Below are positions 1 to 32,637 of a stretch of DNA of 33,453 nt, in pieces. How positions within the stretch are numbered: the stretch's first letter is position 1; each line of letters opens with the position of its first letter. The DNA comes from a bacterium (GTDB lineage: Bacteria; Patescibacteriota; Gracilibacteria; Absconditabacterales; Absconditicoccaceae). Where the stretch lies: assembly GCA_023245855.1 (NCBI GenBank), contig JAHFJL010000003.1, forward strand, positions 14,424 to 47,876, given 5' to 3'. Below the pieces are notes generated by a model. That model was not told the DNA's origin. It saw only the letters and a program-made list of their open reading frames with translations, and did not search any database. Position numbers and translations under genes: made by a program.

Positions 1-1304
1 GCACGAGTAATGATTGTCTTTACTTCGTGGGGAGTAAGATTTTGCGCTTCATCAATAATGAATATCGTATTGTTGAAACTGCGTCCTCGAATAGAAGCCA
101 GAGGTTGAATTTTGATCTTCCCCTCCATTTTGAGTGCTGAAATGAAATCCACTCTGTCTGTGGAAGGCTCTTTTTTCGTTTTTCTAGCTTTTGCTGAATG
201 AAGGTCTTCTTCGTTTACTACCTGTACTTTGGGGCCTTTCATCTGACTTTGGATAAAAGCCAAATTATCATATAAGCCTTGCATGTAGGGTGATACCTTT
301 TCATTAGCATCACCAGGAAGCGCTCCGATATCTTTGTTACTCAAAGGTACCATAGCCGCTGAGACAATAATTCTTTCATATAGGCATTCCTTAATTTGTT
401 GAACACCCGTAGCCATAGCCAATAACGTTTTTCCAGTTCCTGCTTTCCCACGTAATGCAACCAGACTTATATCCTGTTGCATCAATGCATGGACAGAAAA
501 TGCTTGTTCAGAATTTTTTGGCGTAATACCCGAAACAGTAACTTTCTTTATCCTGTGGAAATATTCCATCTTTACATCTACACGGACCAGGATGCTCTTA
601 CTTTTGCATTTGAGAGCAAAATACATGTTCGGCTTTATGATTTCCTTATTGATACATGCAGAATATTCTGCATTAAAAATGGGAGCTTTCCCAGCTTCGT
701 ACAAAAGTTCAATCAATGGCGACAAACTTTCATCAACAATTTCTCCTTTTCCGGTATTGAGATCGGATATAGAATGAGGGATTTTATCGTTTTGATAATC
801 CTCTACTTCGATACCGAGTGCACCCGCTTTGATACTCAGGTTGATGTCTTTGGTAACAAGAATCACTCGTCTTTTTTGACCTTTAAGCTCTTCAGCCTTG
901 ATACTGAATATCGCACTCAATATCCTGTGATCCGGGATCTCATCATAGAACAAATCTTTTACTTTGTTGTCTAATTTCCGAGACACCGGTTTAATCTCGA
1001 TAGTACCTAAGCCTTCTCCTAATGAAACACCCCCATGAAATAATGCAGATACCGTTTTGTGTATTGCATTGGGACCTTTTCCATGCGTGTAACTTTTGGT
1101 GGTAGCACGGAGTTTGTCCAGGATACGGTGAAATTCACGAACGTTGACGTTTTTGGTCTCATTCCCTTTCTTGAATTTATCTAATTCTTCAAGGACGGTT
1201 GTGAGGATGCAGACGTCATGTTCCTGAAAATCATAGATAGAATTAAACTTGTGCATAATCACATTCGTGTCAGGTACGAATAATTTTTTTTCTGGATGTG
1301 TCAT
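1..1304 (-). CDS. PhoH-like protein: N-terminal PIN domain plus PhoH ATPase (C-terminus off window)
   Basis: The frame starts at ATG 1304 and runs off the left edge after 434 codons. Residues 1-150 look like a PIN nuclease domain: PDTNVIMH at the N-terminus, an EELDKFK segment, then VTKDINLSIKA. A PhoH-type P-loop ATPase follows, with Walker A GKAGTGKT near residue 285 and Walker B IFIIDEAQNLTPHE close to the window edge. This PIN-PhoH order is that of the YlaK/PhoH2 family, thought to couple RNA unwinding to cleavage in the cytoplasm. About 28 glycines are visible and none is TGA, unlike most neighbours. The remaining ATPase sensor region should lie left of the window. Family assignment is firm; the RNA substrate is not known. 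Confidence 0.93.
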   Translation of the reverse strand, partial: MTHPEKKLFVPDTNVIMHKFNSIYDFQEHDVCILTTVLEELDKFKKGNETKNVNVREFHRILDKLRATTKSYTHGKGPNAIHKTVSALFHGGVSLGEGLGTIEIKPVSRKLDNKVKDLFYDEIPDHRILSAIFSIKAEELKGQKRRVILVTKDINLSIKAGALGIEVEDYQNDKIPHSISDLNTGKGEIVDESLSPLIELLYEAGKAPIFNAEYSACINKEIIKPNMYFALKCKSKSILVRVDVKMEYFHRIKKVTVSGITPKNSEQAFSVHALMQQDISLVALRGKAGTGKTLLAMATGVQQIKECLYERIIVSAAMVPLSNKDIGALPGDANEKVSPYMQGLYDNLAFIQSQMKGPKVQVVNEEDLHSAKARKTKKEPSTDRVDFISALKMEGKIKIQPLASIRGRSFNNTIFIIDEAQNLTPHEVKTIITR

Positions 1305-12232: not shown

Positions 12233-12263
12233 AAAAAAAACTCCCTGGGAAATACCCAGGGAG
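12233..12263 (-). terminator. Terminator of the barrel/membrane-protein pair
   Basis: On the minus strand CTCCCTGGG-TATTT-CCCAGGGAG and eight T. It is the most GC-rich hairpin in the window, 24 nt after the stop of the 157-aa membrane protein. Confidence 0.92.
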
Positions 12264-12287
12264 CAATATTATTTTTCCTCCTTTAGT

Positions 12288-12761
12288 TTAGTCTTTTTGC
12301 ATGATCCAATTTATAACTAATTCTTCCCAACTGATTGGTATCTTCCTTATCAAATAAAGAATAGCTGTTACAACTAATAGATCTATAATACATACAATAT
12401 ATCCTATTAATATATTCATTCCTACTATCAACGAAGCAGTTATACACATAGATACCATAAAAAAGAGCATAATTATTATAAACAATGTACCCTCCAAGTA
12501 TCCGTTCGGACATTTATTCCAGATATTTTTGAAGGGAAAATTATGTATACTAAATACAAATAAAAACACTCCTAATGTATCACACCACCTGCTTATCAAA
12601 AATCCAGGAAGTATCTTGTATAACCAATATATCAAACTATGATCATTAACATAATATATAGAAGGGAGTTTTCCGTTTTGAAACCAAACAACGATCCATA
12701 TCAATGCATGTATCAGACTTAGCAATAATGCCAAGCGCCAATAAATTTTTTTTGTTTTCAT
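12288..12761 (-). CDS. Small multi-span membrane protein, 157 aa, no TGA codons
   Basis: Four or five hydrophobic helices are visible: about residues 8-27 (LALLLSLIHALIWIVVWF), 45-85 in two parts, 90-112 (TLFIIIMLFFMVSMCITAS) and 115-138 (NILIGYIVCIIDLLVVTAILY). Charged residues sit at the ends. No enzymatic motif is seen. It follows the barrel-like gene by 37 nt and shares its terminator, so the two are one transcript. All eight glycines are GGN; with so few this is only suggestive of foreign origin. Family unknown. Confidence 0.75.
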   Translation of the reverse strand: MKTKKIYWRLALLLSLIHALIWIVVWFQNGKLPSIYYVNDHSLIYWLYKILPGFLISRWCDTLGVFLFVFSIHNFPFKNIWNKCPNGYLEGTLFIIIMLFFMVSMCITASLIVGMNILIGYIVCIIDLLVVTAILYLIRKIPISWEELVINWIMQKD

Positions 12762-12798
12762 GATTTCTTATTTTTAAGTTTTTGTTAATAATTCTGTT

Positions 12799-13662
12799 TT
12801 AGAGATGAATAAACAAATACCCTTTAATGGCTCTATTTTCGTAATTATATCCCAAACAAGGCAGAACACTGAAATGCTTTGAAGTGAATACTTTGTAGAT
12901 GCCCCACTCTCCACGAACCCATTTCTTGGTTTCTAAATTATATCCCATATCTGTATAGACAAGGATATTGTGTTTTTTGGAAATTTTGCATCCGAACATA
13001 TTCGCTACCACTTTATCCTGTTTCCAGACGAACGTAGTCCAAACATTTGTGCCTTTATAGCTCAACGCCATTCCTGTTTTCTCATCTTGGACACCGTAAT
13101 ATCCTGATACTGTCAGCTTTTTGTAGCTGATGTTTGCATGATATTCCGGATATTGTCGACGAGCAACGACACCAAGACCAAAAGATAGATTGTCATTGGG
13201 AGCGTATGTGGTTTTTGCACCAAGTCCGCTTCCAGGAATCTGTGATTCTGTCCAGGTTTCAAACTGACCGCCTGCACTTACTGGATGAGGACGTTGCTGA
13301 CTAGAAAGTGTTGCCATTTGACCGATTTGAAGTGACCATCTCTTGCAGGGCGCAATTTTTAAAAAAAATTGATTTAATCCCCAAGATTGATCTGTCTCCA
13401 ATTGATACATAGAGCAGGCATTCAACATCAGCCACTTCGTTATATTCCAATGGATTGCAGCACCAAAACGGACATTACCGTAATTGCTTACGTGAATGCT
13501 GTCTGTGCTGAATTTTGAAATACCCAACATGCCTCCATACACTTTTTCTACTACAAGAGAACTATCGCTAGTCATCTTGATGTTTTCAAGTTGTGCGTAA
13601 CTTGTTTTTGTGCAGCAAAATATCGTTACTACGATAATGCCAATTGCTAATGACCTTTTCAT
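12799..13662 (-). CDS. Secreted beta-barrel-like (outer-membrane-type) protein, 287 aa, no TGA codons
   Basis: An N-terminal signal peptide (MKRSLAIGIIVVTIFCC) ends at TSYA-QLE, a cleavage site style common in Bacteroidota outer-membrane proteins. The rest alternates polar and aromatic/hydrophobic residues with Gly turns, as in barrel strands: NVRFGAAIHWNITKWLMLNA, WSLQIGQMATL, LSFGLGVVARRQ, KLTVSGYYGV, NVWTTFVW. It closes with a strand-like YLFIHL. All 25 glycines are GGN. The base composition also looks richer in G+C than the flanking genes. Code-25 bacteria of the CPR lack an outer membrane as far as known, so transfer from a diderm partner is a reasonable inference. The PhoH-like gene also lacks TGA, so codon evidence alone is not proof. 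Barrel fold is inferred, not shown. Confidence 0.75.
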   Translation of the reverse strand: MKRSLAIGIIVVTIFCCTKTSYAQLENIKMTSDSSLVVEKVYGGMLGISKFSTDSIHVSNYGNVRFGAAIHWNITKWLMLNACSMYQLETDQSWGLNQFFLKIAPCKRWSLQIGQMATLSSQQRPHPVSAGGQFETWTESQIPGSGLGAKTTYAPNDNLSFGLGVVARRQYPEYHANISYKKLTVSGYYGVQDEKTGMALSYKGTNVWTTFVWKQDKVVANMFGCKISKKHNILVYTDMGYNLETKKWVRGEWGIYKVFTSKHFSVLPCLGYNYENRAIKGYLFIHL

Positions 13663-13737
13663 GGATAGTGATTTTTTATTTGTTTATTTGCCTCACCTTT
13701 CTGGCGTTCGACTCCTCCCATACTAATTACCGTAAAA

Positions 13738-21561: not shown

Positions 21562-22305
21562 TTATTTCGATTTCCAGATAAAATTGAATATGCTTTTGAG
21601 ACTATCGTGCATGCTTGTACTATGGATAATGATTCATGACATTTCCTTATCATTGAACATGGCTATAGATACTCTATTCTCTCAATAAATATTGATCTCA
21701 CCACGCAAAGAAAAAAGCGGCGTTTTGATGATATGAGTCTCTTTAAACGCTTTTTTATCTAATTTTTTATAATCTACATTCGCTTCTTGGTTGCTTACGA
21801 TAACTTTTGCAGGTATTTTTAATTTTATTCTTTGGGGAAGAAATCATTCGAACAAACGTTTTTTGAGCGTAGGCTGCATATCCTCAAGCCCTAAAAACGA
21901 ATGAATAGGTTCATGGGTAGAACTCAACATATCATCATACATTTTGACTATTCCTTCCAATCATTCAAAAAATTGGACCTTTATTTTATTGCCGAACTTT
22001 TCAGCCATGGCTAATAATTCAGGAACCTTTTGTTTGAAACTTTCATACTTTTGTTCAAGTTGTTTCAAAAGGATATCAGGACTGATAACACTGTAATATT
22101 TTACACCTTCTTTTGTGGTTTCGTTGACGATACCATCTCGTTTCAAATCTTCGAGCAAAGTATAGGTCGTCACTCTATTGAGTTCTGCACGTCTAGCGAT
22201 AGTGCTTGCTATCGAAGTTCCCAATTCCAAAACCGTGAGATACACTCTCGCTTCTTTCTCAGAAAGTCCATAATTTTGGAGGGTGATCAATAAATTTGCG
22301 TCCAT
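21562..22305 (-). CDS. TrmB-family transcriptional regulator A, 247 aa
   Basis: The N-terminal winged helix-turn-helix spans residues 1-75: MDANLLITLQNYGLSEKEAR, YLTVLELGTSIASTIARRAE, LNRVTTYTLLEDLKRDGIV. A coiled linker follows (LLKQLEQKYESFKQKVPELL). The C-terminal domain (EGLEGIVKMYDDMLSSTHEP through SMHDSLKSIFNFIWKSK) matches the effector-binding half of TrmB-like regulators, which usually sense sugars or other small molecules. The start ATG 22305 is shared in context with paralogue B (24843-25616), whose first 20 residues are nearly identical. An in-frame upstream ATG would give a longer N-terminus but would fall inside the conserved promoter/leader. It is the first gene of the operon with the methyltransferase fusion. 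Confidence 0.9.
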
Positions 22306-24842: not shown

Positions 24843-25616
24843 TTATTTTTTCTTTTTTATGACTTTTTTGGTATGTGATACTCGGAGATATTCAAAGATA
24901 CCAACCATTGTCGTATACACCTCATTATTTTCTATAATCAATGCATGAGGAATATTGTCTTTATCAAAAAATACGATCGCTACTTTTCCTGGGCCATAAA
25001 TATTCACATCGGCATGAATTGGCAAAGGGAAATCATTGATAATCACTGTTTTTCTACCATGGAGTTTATCATCCGCTAGTTCCTTTTTTACATCTACATT
25101 ATCAGCAGTTACGATTCTTCTGGAGATTAATCATTTCTTTTTTCTCATCATACGATAAGGTCACGCATAGAGTGAAAATGTTTTTTTGTGTCTTTGTGGA
25201 GTTCATAGAATCACTCTCATATCCTCGGTCGTAGTAGCAAAATCAGCGAACAACTTTTCGAGCGATGATATCCCTTCCAGATAATTTATCTTTGGTGCAG
25301 TACCTATTTTTTCAGTAAGCAAAAGGAATTCCGGCACCTTTTCTTTGAACTGCAAAAATTTCTGTTCTAGTAATTCTGCAAGTATTTTTGGAGAAACTAC
25401 AGAAAAATATTTTGTATCTTTTCTTTCCAATACATTGACTATTCCTTTATTTTTTAGTTCTTTGAGAAGAGAATACACGGTCACTCTTTTTTCATTAGTG
25501 TATCTTGCAATAGTGCTTGCTGGTCCTGATCCAAGCTCCAAACAAGAAAGATATATCTTTGCTTCTTTCTCAGAAAGTCAGTAATTTTGGAGGGTGATCA
25601 ATAAGTTTGCGTCCAT
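24843..25616 (-). CDS. TrmB-family transcriptional regulator B, 257 aa
   Basis: Paralogue of regulator A. Its winged HTH (MDANLLITLQNYGLSEKEAK, YLSCLELGSGPASTIARYTN, EKRVTVYSLLKELKNKGIV) is nearly the same at the start and diverges later. The linker (LAELLEQKFLQFKEKVPEFL) and the C-terminal domain (KGLISRRIVTADNVDVKKE, DFPLPIHADVNIYGPGKVAI) are clearly different, so the two may sense different signals. It ends in a run of lysines before TAA 24843. It is the first gene of a three-gene operon (107-nt gap to the HAD-containing gene). The gap holds a small inverted repeat GTTGTT-N7-AACAAC at 24816-24834. Confidence 0.9.
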
Positions 25617-26367: not shown

Positions 26368-29300
26368 TTACAAACTAGGAAGCGTGATAATAAGCGTACC
26401 AGAATATTGACCTAATGCTTGATATGCAGAAATATCTATTCTAAGCTCTACTTGAGAAGTTTCTATCTTACATATATTTCCTGTACTTGCTGACTTTCCA
26501 AGGACGACAGTATCTGTACCGATGCTTGTTCGTGCATCCAATGATGATCATGAATTCGCAATACATATTCATGAGCTCACTGTTGCTGCAGGATTCTTAA
26601 TAAAGATATTGCTGCTTGGGATAGTATGTGCGGGGATATTTGTGGTGATATTGAGAAGATCACTTGATTGGATGCTCAAAGTTCGAGGAGCAGCTCCTTG
26701 AATATCGTTACAGAACCATGCGTTGTTGCCGCTCATCGTTATAAATGATCAGGTGATTGATCTTCCTGATGATGCATATATTATGGTACCGAAATCCAAT
26801 GTTTTTCCATATTCACAATATCCAATACCACTCGCACCTGTATAATTGATGCTGTCATTGGTATATGCTTCTACGGTACCAGTTATTCCGTCAGTGTCAA
26901 ATTGAGCTCGTACGGTCTTCATTCCGAATCCTGTGGAGAGTGTCCATGCTTTGGTAGGATCATATCCTTCCCAATCGCTTCGTGATCCACTTGCGCCTGT
27001 ATTGGAGAAACTCATATTTTGTATTCACGTAGCATTGATATTTAGTGTAACTGAATCGCTCGTTGTGGAAGGAGCATCGTTGTTGATGACGAAAGTACCC
27101 GTTGAAATCCCAATTGCGAATAGAGTGAGATGATTAGTATCTATTGATACATAGGGATGTTCATTGATATTTATGACATTAGTTGGAGTTGAGGCGGTCC
27201 ATGTGGATCCATCGTCATGAGAATAATAAACCGAAACAAAATCTCCTATCGCAGCTCCTGGAACCGGTATTCTCAGCTGTACGTTTACAGGATGATCTGA
27301 TATATCTGTAAAATGGATTGATTCGTTTTGATTGTTACCGAAGTCTACTACAGCAAGAACATTAGGGATCCCTGCTTGTGTAGCGAGTGAAGTCGATTGT
27401 TCGATTGGAGTGTCGAGAATTCCAAGAAATGGACTATTATCTTGCTTCTTGACTACGATGCCAGCAGGTGCTTGCATTTCTATTTTGTCAGCTCCCGTTG
27501 ATTGCATGATAAAAGGGATTAATATCTCTCCATCACTGAATTCACTCCTGATTCTTCTGCTTCCTACATAGGTTCCATTTTGGATGTTTTCTAAAGTGCC
27601 TGTTCCATTGATGTATCTCTTACGAGTAAATTCATCAATAATAGTATTTTGATCTGATCTATTTGACGGGATATCTACGGTGTACGTCAAACAATTCGCA
27701 TCACAATAGAGTCATAATCTATTATTTGCTCCATTGTCGCATTGTTCACCTGTTTCTATGATTCCGTTTCCACAGACTGCTGGTCCTGGTACACATGCAG
27801 CATCACCTGCAGGCACAGGAGGTATAAATTTCTGGATACGATTATTACTTGAATCTGCAACATAAGTATCTCATTGTACATCTGCTTTTATATCACCAGG
27901 TCAATTAAGTTGTCCGTTATCAGGACCTAGCAATCCCCATTTTCTTACAAATGTATATGCACCACTTCAACCACAGATAGTGTTATTATTCATATCATTT
28001 CCTGTAGTACAGATATTGTCAGTATAACAATCACAGCCATCACCAATACCATTGGTATTCACATCGGCTTGATCAGGATTGATCACTAACGGACAGTTAT
28101 CGATAGAGAATCCCGAGCTTTGTGCAGGAGCTCCAACTTTTCATGATTGAGATACGGGAGTGACTTCAAATATGAGGGTTGTATTATCTGTAGGAGTTAC
28201 CGTATAGGTTCTGCTTGTCTCTCCAGGAATCTCACTATTATTGAGATATCGTTTGAATGTAGAAGTAGCTTGAGGATCAGTTCAGAACTTCATTACGGTA
28301 GCTTTGTTATTGTTTGTGCTATCCGTGTATGCAATGTAAGGAAGGTCGCTGATAGGATTGATAGTGAGTGAAGTATATAGTGTTCAACTTGTAGAAGCTG
28401 GTGTACCACCGAGAAATTCTCGATCAGTTCCGTTGAATTTTTGTACAGTAGCTTTGTTGCTAGTAGTAGCATCAACATAAGCAACATAAGCCACTCAACT
28501 ACTATTTATAGCAAGTGAGACTGCGTCATTGATACCATCAGCGATTGGTGATCCTACAGCAACCCAAGAAGCGCCATCGAATTTTTGTATGGTAGTGGTC
28601 TGTTGATTGGTATTGCCTTGGTAATTTTGGTAGACTACATAAGGAGTATTGTTATTACCTATAGTAATCGAAGAATCAAATGCTTGAGTATTGGAGAATC
28701 CTTGAGTACCGACAAATTCCCAACTGCTTCCATTAAATTTTTGTACGGTGATTGCATATCCAACTGCTCCATCTGCATAAGCAATATATAGGATATGATT
28801 AGCATCTATAGCAAGCGAAGGCGATCCTGCATAATTATCGGACAATCCTGGAACACCCACAAATTCTCGATCAGTTCCATTGAATTTTTTTACGGTAGCT
28901 TTGTAGCTATGTCAATCATCTCTATAAGCAAGATAAGGAGTACCATCCGAATCTATAACAAGCGATGGATAATATACTGAACCACTAGAGAATGCTGAAG
29001 TACCGACAAATGCTCGATTACTGCCATTAAATTTCATGACGGAAGATCCATATCAATTGGTATATGCTACATACGGTTTATTGGTGGTTGGATTGATGGC
29101 GAGCGAGATATTGCTATTTACACCATCAACGGAAAATTGTCCTGAGCCTATGGTAGTCCAAGAAGATCAGTTCCATTTCATTACGGTGATATTACTTACG
29201 TTATCTATACAATTTGGAGGATCAAGCCAATTGCTGCAGAAATCATCTTTGTATGCTATATAGGGAGTTCAGCTGCTATCAAACGCAAGAGAGGTGTATG

Positions 29301-32300
29301 ATGCTGGTCCTCTTGAGACCGCTCCGCTCGCAAGCCCTTGGATACCTACGGGTATCCAGAAGTCATTGAAGTAGGTGTAGTTGCCTGTGAGTGTTTGCCC
29401 GTTGACTATTGTACCTGAGATAGAAACATTTTGTGCAACAGGAATATGTTCGAGAGTACAAGTAGCGGAACATCAGTCACCACTTGTATTATTTCCATCG
29501 TCACATTGTTCACCTGTTTCTACAATACCGTTACCACAGGTATAACAAGCTGTAGTATCTTGGACATTTTCCCGATTATAATAGAATGAATATCCATCAT
29601 TGTATGACGCTTTGCTATCCAAGAAAGAGATAAGATCAGAACTCAAAGTATTTGTACATATCTTATTATTTTGTAGCGAGAGAGAATATGCGAGTCAATC
29701 CATTCCCACATAGTATGTCCCTGGCAGTCCCGCAAGTTCAGTGATAAGGCTCTCAGGAAGCGTAGCTAATTGATTGTTTTGGAGATAGAGATTTTGAAGA
29801 ACAGAGAGTCCATTGAAAGCACCGGTCGAGATATCCGTAAGAAGATTATTCTCTAGATGAAGATTTAATAGACTAGATAATCAATTAAAAGAATCAGCTC
29901 AAAGAGTTGTTAGTTGATTATTCTGGAGAGATAAATTTTGAAGAACAGATAATCAATTAAAGTCATTACTAGATATATTTGTAATGTTGTTGCTGCTGAG
30001 ATTAAGAGTGGTGAGATAGGCCAATCCAGAAAGAGAAGGTAATTCTCACGAGAGATTGTTGGTTGATAGATTTATCGAAGTCACATGTCCAGCACTACAA
30101 GAGATCCCGTTCCAACCATTGTTGGCATCATTACAGATAGTCCATCCATTAAGCCAGCGACCTGTAGTAGTCCAATGGTCTCCATCTGTTCCCGTATATA
30201 GTCTCACTAACGCTTCACATTCAGCTGGAGAGATATCAACCGTATCACAAGAGAACACTGGTGGTGTACAATTATCTGGAGTTTGTAAAGATTGCCAGTA
30301 TATTCAAAAATTGGTATTAATGAAGTTAAATGTGTCTGTATTTAATGAATAGATACATATCTTATTATAGTTTAAAGTAAGATATGTCAGACTAGGTAAA
30401 TCGGAAACACTGGCAAAACTGGAAATATGATTATTTTCTAAATCAAGACGATCCAAATAATTTAATCCGGAGAGCGAAGGCACGGTTCATGAAAGATTGC
30501 TTGAGTGGATACTCAATTTCGTTACATGTCCACCGATACAACTAACATCAAACTGCATACATACATCAGGGATTGTGGTCTTTGCACAATATACATCATA
30601 TCGATTACAAATTCCTGTTGTAGTTCACCATTGCTTTCCAGTGCCAGCGGTTCCATAAATAGGAGAATATCCACCCCCTAGATACAAATTCCAGTTGTCT
30701 CCATTGGTAGCGTTATAGAATCTCGCTAAAGCTTTACATTCTGTTACAGGGACATCCAAACTTCACGAATTGAAATCACACCAGGTGTCGTTGAATCCAG
30801 TCACTACTAGAGGTACTGGACATGCACTAGTATCTTGATGCAATGACCAATTATAACCAAAATTCATAAAGCTGTAATTACTTTCATTAAGGAAATTAAT
30901 CATTGGTGTACTTAATGAATCTATACAAAGACTATTGTCTCCGACGAATAAATGTCAGTCAGGCCAAGCTCGAGTCGTATACAATCCAGAAAGCGTATCC
31001 TGTGTTATATTTCCTATTTGATTATATTTTACATCGATATAATATCCGCTAGACAACCCAATAAACGCATTATCTCCTATACCTGCTATCCTATTCATTG
31101 CTAAATGGATTGTCTGAAGGCTATAAAGTCCAGCAAATGCACCTGTAGCAATACTTGTTATATCATTCTGATCTAAATTAATAAAGGTAAGTCCCGTCAG
31201 TCCAGTAAAATCCGGTATGTCTGTGAAAAAATTATTATTTGCATAGAAAGAATAAAGGCTAGAAAGTCAGTTCAAACTAGGTAGATTTGTTAGTTGGTTA
31301 TAATCTAGGTATATATATTCAAGATGAGTCAATCCAGAAAAGGAATCATTCGTGATACTTGTCAGATAATTATTTGATAAAGAAATATTCATTAGATCGG
31401 ATAATCACGTAAGCGAAGGTAAAGTTCATGAGAGATTATTATTGGAAAGATTGATTATACTCACATGGTTATTACAGACGATTCCGCTCCAACCACCGCT
31501 ACAAACCGTTGGTGAAGATAGCCATCCTCCTGTATTCGTCCATCCGGATCAATTTGTAGAATCATATATACTGACCAAATTTTCACATTCAGATTGAGGG
31601 ATGTCAGTGACTGTACTACAATCGAATCCAGCTGGTGCTGAACAAGCGCTAGAGTCTTGAGCAGATGGCCAACTCCCGCCTAATGTACTATTCAAAAACG
31701 CCATAACATCCATACTCAAAGATCAGGTACAAATTTTATTAGTGAAGATTTGCAATACAGATAGAGCATTAAGTGATGTGAAGCTATCAGGAATCGTAGT
31801 GAGCTGGTTGCTATCTAAATACAGATAATGAAGATTAGGGAATCCTGCAAAACTAGGAAGACTGGTAATCTGGTTGCTAGATACATAAAGCTGCTGAAGA
31901 TTAGAAAGTCCAGCGATATTAGGTATATCTGTCAGAAGATTGCTAGATACATCCAGTTTGTTAAGATTAGATAATCCTGTAAAACTAGGGATATTTGAGA
32001 TTGTGAGTTGATTGTTTGATAGATCAAGTTGCTGAAGACTAGTTATCACGTTAAGATCGGGTACGCTTGTCAATCAATTATGATCTAAACTAAGATATCG
32101 AGGAGTGCTTCCAGCAAACATTTCGTTTCTGACAGGCAATCCAGGATTGTTGCCCAGAAAAAGAAATTTTGCATTTGTTCCATCAAGTGCGTTGTCTCCT
32201 ATATCCGTCAATCCATTATTATTGAGATAGAGATAAGCGAGACTAGTCAATCCCGTAAGCGAAGGAATAGTTCATGAGAGATTATTATAAGCGAGATTGA

Positions 32301-32637
32301 GATTATTTACATGGTTATCAGTATTACAATTGATACCATGCCAAACACCACAGACTGTAGTTGAAACAAACCATCCTCCCGTATTGGTCCACCCCGATCA
32401 ATTGGTAGAAGTATATAATCTGACTAAATTTTCACATTCATCTCCAGAAATATCCAGACTTCAAGAATTATCACTACACCATGATTCTCTCATATCTGCA
32501 TGTGGAGAATTTTGAAACAAGAGAAATCAGGTTAGCGAAATAGCTAGCACTCAAAGCAGATATTTAAATCCGTGTTTGTGCATATGATGCTTTACCTTGG
32601 TATGGATATGTTGTGGTTTTTTTTTGGGTATTTTCAT
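26368..32637 (-). CDS. Giant surface protein: LRR modules, beta-propeller and Cys-rich repeats, 2089 aa
   Basis: One uninterrupted code-25 frame. It starts MKIPKKKPQHIHTKV, with a membrane/signal helix at about 25-44 (KYLLGVLAISLTGFLLF). Residues 50-1025 hold four LRR modules. Each opens with an N-cap like plant receptor LRRs (ECENLVRLYTSTNGSGWTN, then GGW and C-x-W-x-G-I-x-C) and ends in a C-cap (NKIC...FLN). A Cys-rich DUF4215-like unit follows at 1031-1060 (CGNGIVETGEQCDDGNN). About seven 50-aa units at 1089-1452 suggest a beta-propeller. Then come a thrombospondin-3-like DNCPLVINPDQADVN, one NHL-like unit (DTYVADSSNNRIQKF), a second DUF4215-like unit, and a C-terminal beta domain ending GQYSGTLIITLPSL. 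No LPXTG motif. Likely an adhesin exposed on the cell surface. Promoter at 32695-32722. Confidence 0.92.
28283..29372 (-). repeat. About seven 50-aa propeller-type repeats within the giant gene
   Basis: Each unit follows the pattern S-L-A-I-[DN]-x-x-x-x-P-Y-[IV]-A-Y-x-D, a short loop, then ATVxKFNGxxWEFVG. Examples are DGTPYLAYRDD, KATVKKFNGTDREFVG and NTPYVVYQNY. Seven units would close one propeller. DNA identity between units is visible (GTACGGTAGCTTTGT-like words), so they arose by recent tandem duplication. Confidence 0.8.
29560..32510 (-). repeat. Four N-/C-capped leucine-rich repeat modules within the giant gene
   Basis: Modules start near 32510, 31640, 30770 and 30250. Typical LRR units are LSNLNKLDVSSNLLTDIPNI and LSVLQNLYLQNNQLATLP, the 22-24-aa bacterial/plant pattern. 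Module 3 is short (about two LRRs) and its N-cap carries an extra Cys-rich insert (ICNRYDVYCAKTT). Confidence 0.85.

Follow-up and report, generated by a model that had tools for sequence, protein, structure and literature searches.

The window analysed here, a stretch of 33,453 nucleotides from a 1.1 Mb, 90.6% complete genome of the Absconditicoccaceae (Gracilibacteria), raises the question of why a CPR bacterium that reads TGA as glycine should carry a gene of outer-membrane-barrel type in which TGA is absent. The gene lies in a pair on the minus strand, and the features on which the argument depends are as follows.

12799..13662, minus strand: predicted porin-like 16-strand outer-membrane barrel protein, 287 aa, with a Sec-type signal peptide and 0/25 TGA glycines (open reading frame, AF2 with family alignment, Foldseek)
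13594..13662, minus strand: signal peptide region, predicted cleavage SYA/QLE (sequence; helix 2–16 in the AF2 model)
13228..13317, minus strand: long loop joining strand 5 to strand 6, modelled with low confidence, residues 116–145 (alignment and model strands)
13663..13692, minus strand: A-rich leader of the barrel gene (...AAATAAACAAATAAAAAATCACTATCC-ATG), without the native TTTA (leader analysis)
12288..12761, minus strand: small membrane protein, 157 aa, 0/7 TGA glycines, 37 bases downstream of the barrel gene
12762..12798, minus strand: A-rich leader of the 157-aa gene, without TTTA (leader analysis)
12233..12263, minus strand: intrinsic terminator of the pair, a 9-bp GC-rich stem CTCCCTGGG/CCCAGGGAG followed by a T-run (sequence)

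The 287-aa frame is open under both genetic codes and stops with TAA; its N-terminal hydrophobic stretch ends ..KTSYA/QLEN and all 25 glycines are GGN, which confirms the signal peptide and codon count of the first-pass annotation. The pairing with a small membrane protein, which matched no family, and the GC-rich terminator after the pair were likewise borne out, and the two genes are probably cotranscribed. In window genes of at least 150 aa, with the pair left out, TGA encodes 162 of 595 glycines (27%), and the chance of finding none is 3.5e-4 for the barrel gene alone (0/25) and 4e-5 for the pair together (0/32). The absence of TGA from the pair is modest by itself and decisive only together with its relatives. 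A PhoH-like gene in the window (3–1304, 0/25) had been correctly listed as equally free of TGA, as is its counterpart in a second species (L011 1381–2976, 0/33); since the PhoH-like homologue in G007 has a native-type TTTA leader, this gene seems to be of another class, its lack of TGA probably having a different cause. Elsewhere in the window, positions 26368–32637 encode a 2089-aa protein that combines leucine-rich repeats with DUF4215 and NHL stretches, in which 38 of 194 glycines are TGA and the GC content is above that of its neighbours.

A single-sequence AF2 model of the 287-aa protein was useless (pLDDT 33), and prediction was redone with an 11-sequence family alignment, giving 16 antiparallel strands with a pLDDT of 78.1 and a pTM of 0.71. 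The best Foldseek match of this model is OmpF (E 2.5e-8, TM 0.63, probability 1.00), and the top 50 PDB matches are almost all OmpF/OmpC/OmpU-type porins, with OmpM1 and designed derivatives also present (TMq 0.53–0.66). The proposal of a barrel is therefore supported by the prediction, although with 16 strands and not the 8–12 originally envisaged. The protein resembles the OmpF/OmpC-type general porins in its 16 predicted antiparallel strands and in the long loop that joins strand 5 to strand 6, but shares only 9–14% identity with them, is about 50 residues shorter and reaches no Pfam family cut-off, the best porin family being BBP2 (PF07642) at 16.4 bits against a cut-off of 26.2; no match was found in NCBIfam. 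BBP2 and DUF2490, both below cut-off, were rejected as its family, and as modelled the protein is porin-like in fold rather than a member of a named porin family. The best-conserved stretch of the family is the loop of residues 116–145, which carries the motif RPHPVSGxGQFE and invariant R124, P125, G132, F134, E135 and G144. In 16-strand porins the constriction loop L3 lies between strands 5 and 6, and this conserved low-confidence loop sits at the same place in the model and may be its equivalent.

Homologues of the barrel protein, at 24–47% identity to the window copy, occur in 13 of the 49 genomes of this code-25 family; the remaining genomes sampled from the same class yielded none. Almost all the homologues are free of TGA, the copies in G015 and G016 being ones that contain it; they adjoin TGA-using genes, and several head islands of small TGA-free genes. 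The region around the gene is a variable hotspot, and the G005 and G022 proteins are 68% identical across genera; from such sequence comparisons the barrel gene seems to move between lineages, vertical descent being shown for its T9SS sister genes (see below) and not for the barrel gene. No relatives were found in viral contigs, plasmids or phages, nor in one short-peptide scan of Bacteroidota. The first-pass annotation had held that closest homologues restricted to CPR genomes would speak against its reading, and this is partly what was seen, in that every homologue found belongs to one Gracilibacteria family, with Bacteroidota covered by the short-peptide scan and the plasmid and phage searches only. 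Misassembly or contamination was rejected as a source of the gene, because homologues occupy similar places in other assemblies and T9SS genes lie inside large code-25 contigs, the single-contig genomes G017 and G033 among them. Some TGA-free genes of the islands have a canonical GGAG/AGGAGG Shine-Dalgarno sequence (L010 9121, L014 1505, L018 10045, L002 199, L119 10370), which is found in only 4 of 536 native genes and suggests that these island genes arrived recently from donors using such sequences.

The relatives that give the codon pattern its weight are genes with a T9SS type A sorting domain. This domain is a trait of the Bacteroidota group. It was found over its curated cut-off in 29 of the 49 family genomes, in proteins with a signal at the N-terminus and the sorting domain at the very end of the C-terminus, the same arrangement as in the T9SS cargo of Bacteroidota (TIGR04183 / PF18962). 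Of 60 such genes in the 29 genomes, 52 contain no TGA and two have it as the stop only, so that 54 lack sense TGA, while in their flanks 3561 of 11,247 glycines (32%, up to 88%) are TGA. In G061 the counts are 0 of 76 glycines against 182 of 208 in the flanks, and in 252 kb of G022, where 66.5% of glycine codons are TGA, discrete genes stand out with 0/64, 0/57, 0/42 and 0/25, two of which carry the sorting domain. Reassignment of the codon is supported in G022 by the presence of a tRNA with anticodon TCA together with a prfB (release factor 2) below cut-off; prfB was also below cut-off in G000 and G008, the other two genomes tested, with control matches in 10. A few T9SS proteins use the native dialect, and the parasite can apparently make some of them itself. 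T9SS-domain genes also occur in relatives of families f7, f10, f12 and f15 (L127–L142), whose loci look standard-coded, so that TGA content is uninformative there; several of these genes have AGGAG-type or A-rich leaders unlike those of their neighbours, in small numbers and with uncertain starts.

Omp85/BamA gave no match over cut-off in any of the 49 genomes, with control matches in 7, and SprA matched neither a family genome nor any control genome. Unlike the OmpF/OmpC-type porins and the T9SS cargo of Bacteroidota, then, the barrel protein and the T9SS sisters are encoded in CPR genomes where no Omp85 was found with a working control, and the parasite's own envelope offers no evident use for either the porin or the T9SS cargo. 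The suggestion of a foreign, diderm-type gene with a new role is supported by these companion genes with T9SS sorting domains. Among open-access papers, none was found that links CPR bacteria to T9SS cargo.

The two groups of genes also differ in how translation appears to begin, all gene starts being predictions. TTTA occurs at −25 to −6 in 406 of 548 native genes (74%) of the sampled family loci and in only one of 63 TGA-free T9SS and barrel genes (P 1e-31), and operon position does not account for this, as native genes with an intergenic upstream still have TTTA in 77%. In the window it precedes nine of ten native genes tested with an intergenic upstream and is missing from the barrel gene and its partner. 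The leaders of the TGA-free T9SS and barrel genes are instead A-rich (A-runs in 65% versus 12% of native genes), with peaks at −14 to −11, −6 and −3 and no Shine-Dalgarno sequence. These are the positions at which A is enriched in the non-Shine-Dalgarno initiation regions of Flavobacterium (PMC6847099); unlike in Flavobacterium, the A-rich leaders here stand in an organism whose own genes use TTTA and whose 16S tail lacks CCTCC. Sense TGA is found in seven T9SS or barrel copies, of which six have TTTA leaders and one has an uncertain start; both T9SS genes with a TGA stop have A-rich leaders. Code and leader type change together. In the 16S 3' tails of G000, G022 and G008 (L124, L125 and L126), ACCACCATTCTAA or ACCACCACTCTAA replaces the CCTCC anti-Shine-Dalgarno core and the ends read ...GACCACCATTCTAA or GACCACCACTCTAA; the TTTA leader may be an altered Shine-Dalgarno pairing, and a TTTA–TAAA pairing with this tail is our guess.

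The signals for transcription do not divide the genes in this way. Promoters of the TTGACTTTT...TATAnT type are common to both dialects (40% and 35%, versus 10–11% in shuffled sequence), whereas the Bacteroidota −33/−7 elements, which a hand-over of DNA would lead one to expect, are not enriched upstream of TGA-free genes; no clear promoter could be matched to the window barrel gene itself. A perfect 18-bp palindrome, TGTTGA-N6-TCAACA, occurs at 10 sites in 1.2 Mb against 0.14 expected (L011 10818 and 11668; L012 10736 and 13128; L014 6882; L045 18873; L119 12035; L002 1613, 3166 and 5052), all in barrel hotspots; eight of them precede a TGA-free gene and two a TGA-using gene, at a distance of about 80–120 bases, and the window has no perfect copy. 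Native-type promoters and a palindrome before genes of both dialects argue for transcription in the parasite. Two TrmB-like regulators adjoin large TGA-using proteins in the window (21562–22305 and 24843–25616), and related sets sit near the barrel gene in G008, G015, G022 and G034; the palindrome is a candidate operator, perhaps of the TrmB-like regulators from the same hotspots. An intrinsic terminator stands after 39% of the host-type genes, compared with 10% of the native genes.

Since the signals for translation of these genes belong to one kind of cell and those for transcription to another, a division of labour suggests itself in which the parasite makes the transcripts and a host translates them. 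Our preferred reading, to which we give a probability of roughly 0.55, is that the genes form a host-dialect class, kept and transcribed by a code-25 Gracilibacterium and translated by a standard-code host, most likely a diderm of the Bacteroidota. Its bolder form, that parasite mRNAs are delivered to the ribosomes of a bacterium using another code, which then equips its own outer membrane with pores and surface proteins encoded by the parasite, we hold more tentatively, at somewhat under an even chance. In such a scheme the parasite would transcribe the TGA-free genes from native-type promoters, and mRNA, or less likely DNA, would reach the host cytoplasm, where a standard-code ribosome would read the TGA-free message from its A-rich leader. 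The barrel protein would be exported by the host Sec system and inserted by the host BAM as a pore, which might leak host solutes or act as an attachment site, and the T9SS-tagged sister proteins might be displayed on the host surface as adhesins. We know of no host for the code-25 Gracilibacteria family. In the related Vampirococcus, TEM found no bridges to its host (PMC8080830).

By analogy, the nearest precedent for host-dialect genes would be the code-11-compatible phages of Gracilibacteria described by Liu et al. (2023, PMC10746230), which also lack in-frame TGA though their presumed host translates that codon to glycine; Bacteroidetes spacers also target some of these phages, and the authors inferred an advantage in host range. 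Unlike those broad-host-range phages, the TGA-free genes considered here sit in the chromosome, keep their synteny from species to species and code for surface proteins of Bacteroidota type.

The main rival to host translation is repeated import from standard-code diderm donors, in which genes come in with donor codons and leaders and then either disappear or gradually take on TGA and TTTA, no host translation being involved; this we consider unlikely as a general account. It would explain the coupling of code and leader as a difference between young and old genes as well as the higher GC content (0.368 versus 0.275 in G022), and it fits the patchy barrel family and its cross-genus similarity. 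Apparently imported genes are indeed present: purB (in G022), a radical SAM gene, a UPF0182 gene and a phage-like block in G007 are TGA-free and look like ordinary recent transfers, and the 126 transferred genes reported for Vampirococcus (PMC8080830) count on the same side. The G007 block (L079 1824–13002) surrounds a T9SS-domain gene, includes several genes unlike those of related loci, and resembles a mobile element or a phage compatible with code 11. What repeated import does not explain are the syntenic T9SS groups, and the native look of the promoters also speaks against it. Five T9SS ortholog groups are conserved between species; the three largest share one place beside rpsL, as a three-gene set upstream of it in G000, G003 and G008 with 54–72% identity, and further groups are found again next to pth and at other sites. 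Their dS is about 1.0–2.9 (native genes 0.8–2.4) and their dN/dS 0.15–0.25, so the idea of recent acquisition does not fit these companion genes, which are old, in the same place and under purifying selection. Among their pairwise conserved glycines the codon differs in 357 of 570 cases and none of the differences involves TGA, against 500 of 981 in native genes, where 252 of the differences do; counted by conserved column, TGA appears in 0 of 213 in the T9SS groups and 132 of 244 in native genes (P 9e-47, indicative only, as the cells are not independent along the tree). The rpsL-side set holds no TGA in 138 conserved glycine columns despite a dS above 1, and equally old native genes accumulate it. 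For the barrel gene itself, repeated import could still be the explanation.

A special translation state within the Gracilibacterium, in which its own ribosomes would read these messages while the UGA-reading tRNA is scarce or another mode of initiation operates, like a rare-codon developmental switch, appears less probable again. It would agree with the native-type promoters and shared operator, and the TAA or TAG stops of nearly all T9SS-domain genes would suit the parasite's own release factor. Two genes, however, end in TGA (L081 near 7050 and L098 near 6880), each running from sorting domain to TGA to intrinsic terminator; these stops would be respected only by a standard-code ribosome and are left unexplained where release factor 2 was not found. 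Nor does such a state account for T9SS tags and a porin where no BAM could be detected, or for leaders that match those of Flavobacterium. That TGA is selected against only when a gene is highly expressed is very improbable and was rejected as the cause, for although some ribosomal genes of genus g1 are TGA-poor (rpsG 0/9 in G000), they still have the TTTA leader, and those of G022 use TGA freely (13/17, 5/5) where T9SS and barrel genes have none.

Even if the genes were acquired by transfer, the coupled switch of codon and leader would provide a clean clock of gene domestication in recoded genomes. If host translation is correct, one genome would hold two translation dialects, its genes sorted by the cell that reads them, and to our knowledge there is no earlier case in which two bacteria divide the expression of a gene between them. 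CPR genes that act in a host could then be recognised from sequence alone, by their TGA content and leader type, which would also point to the host group of uncultured Gracilibacteria.
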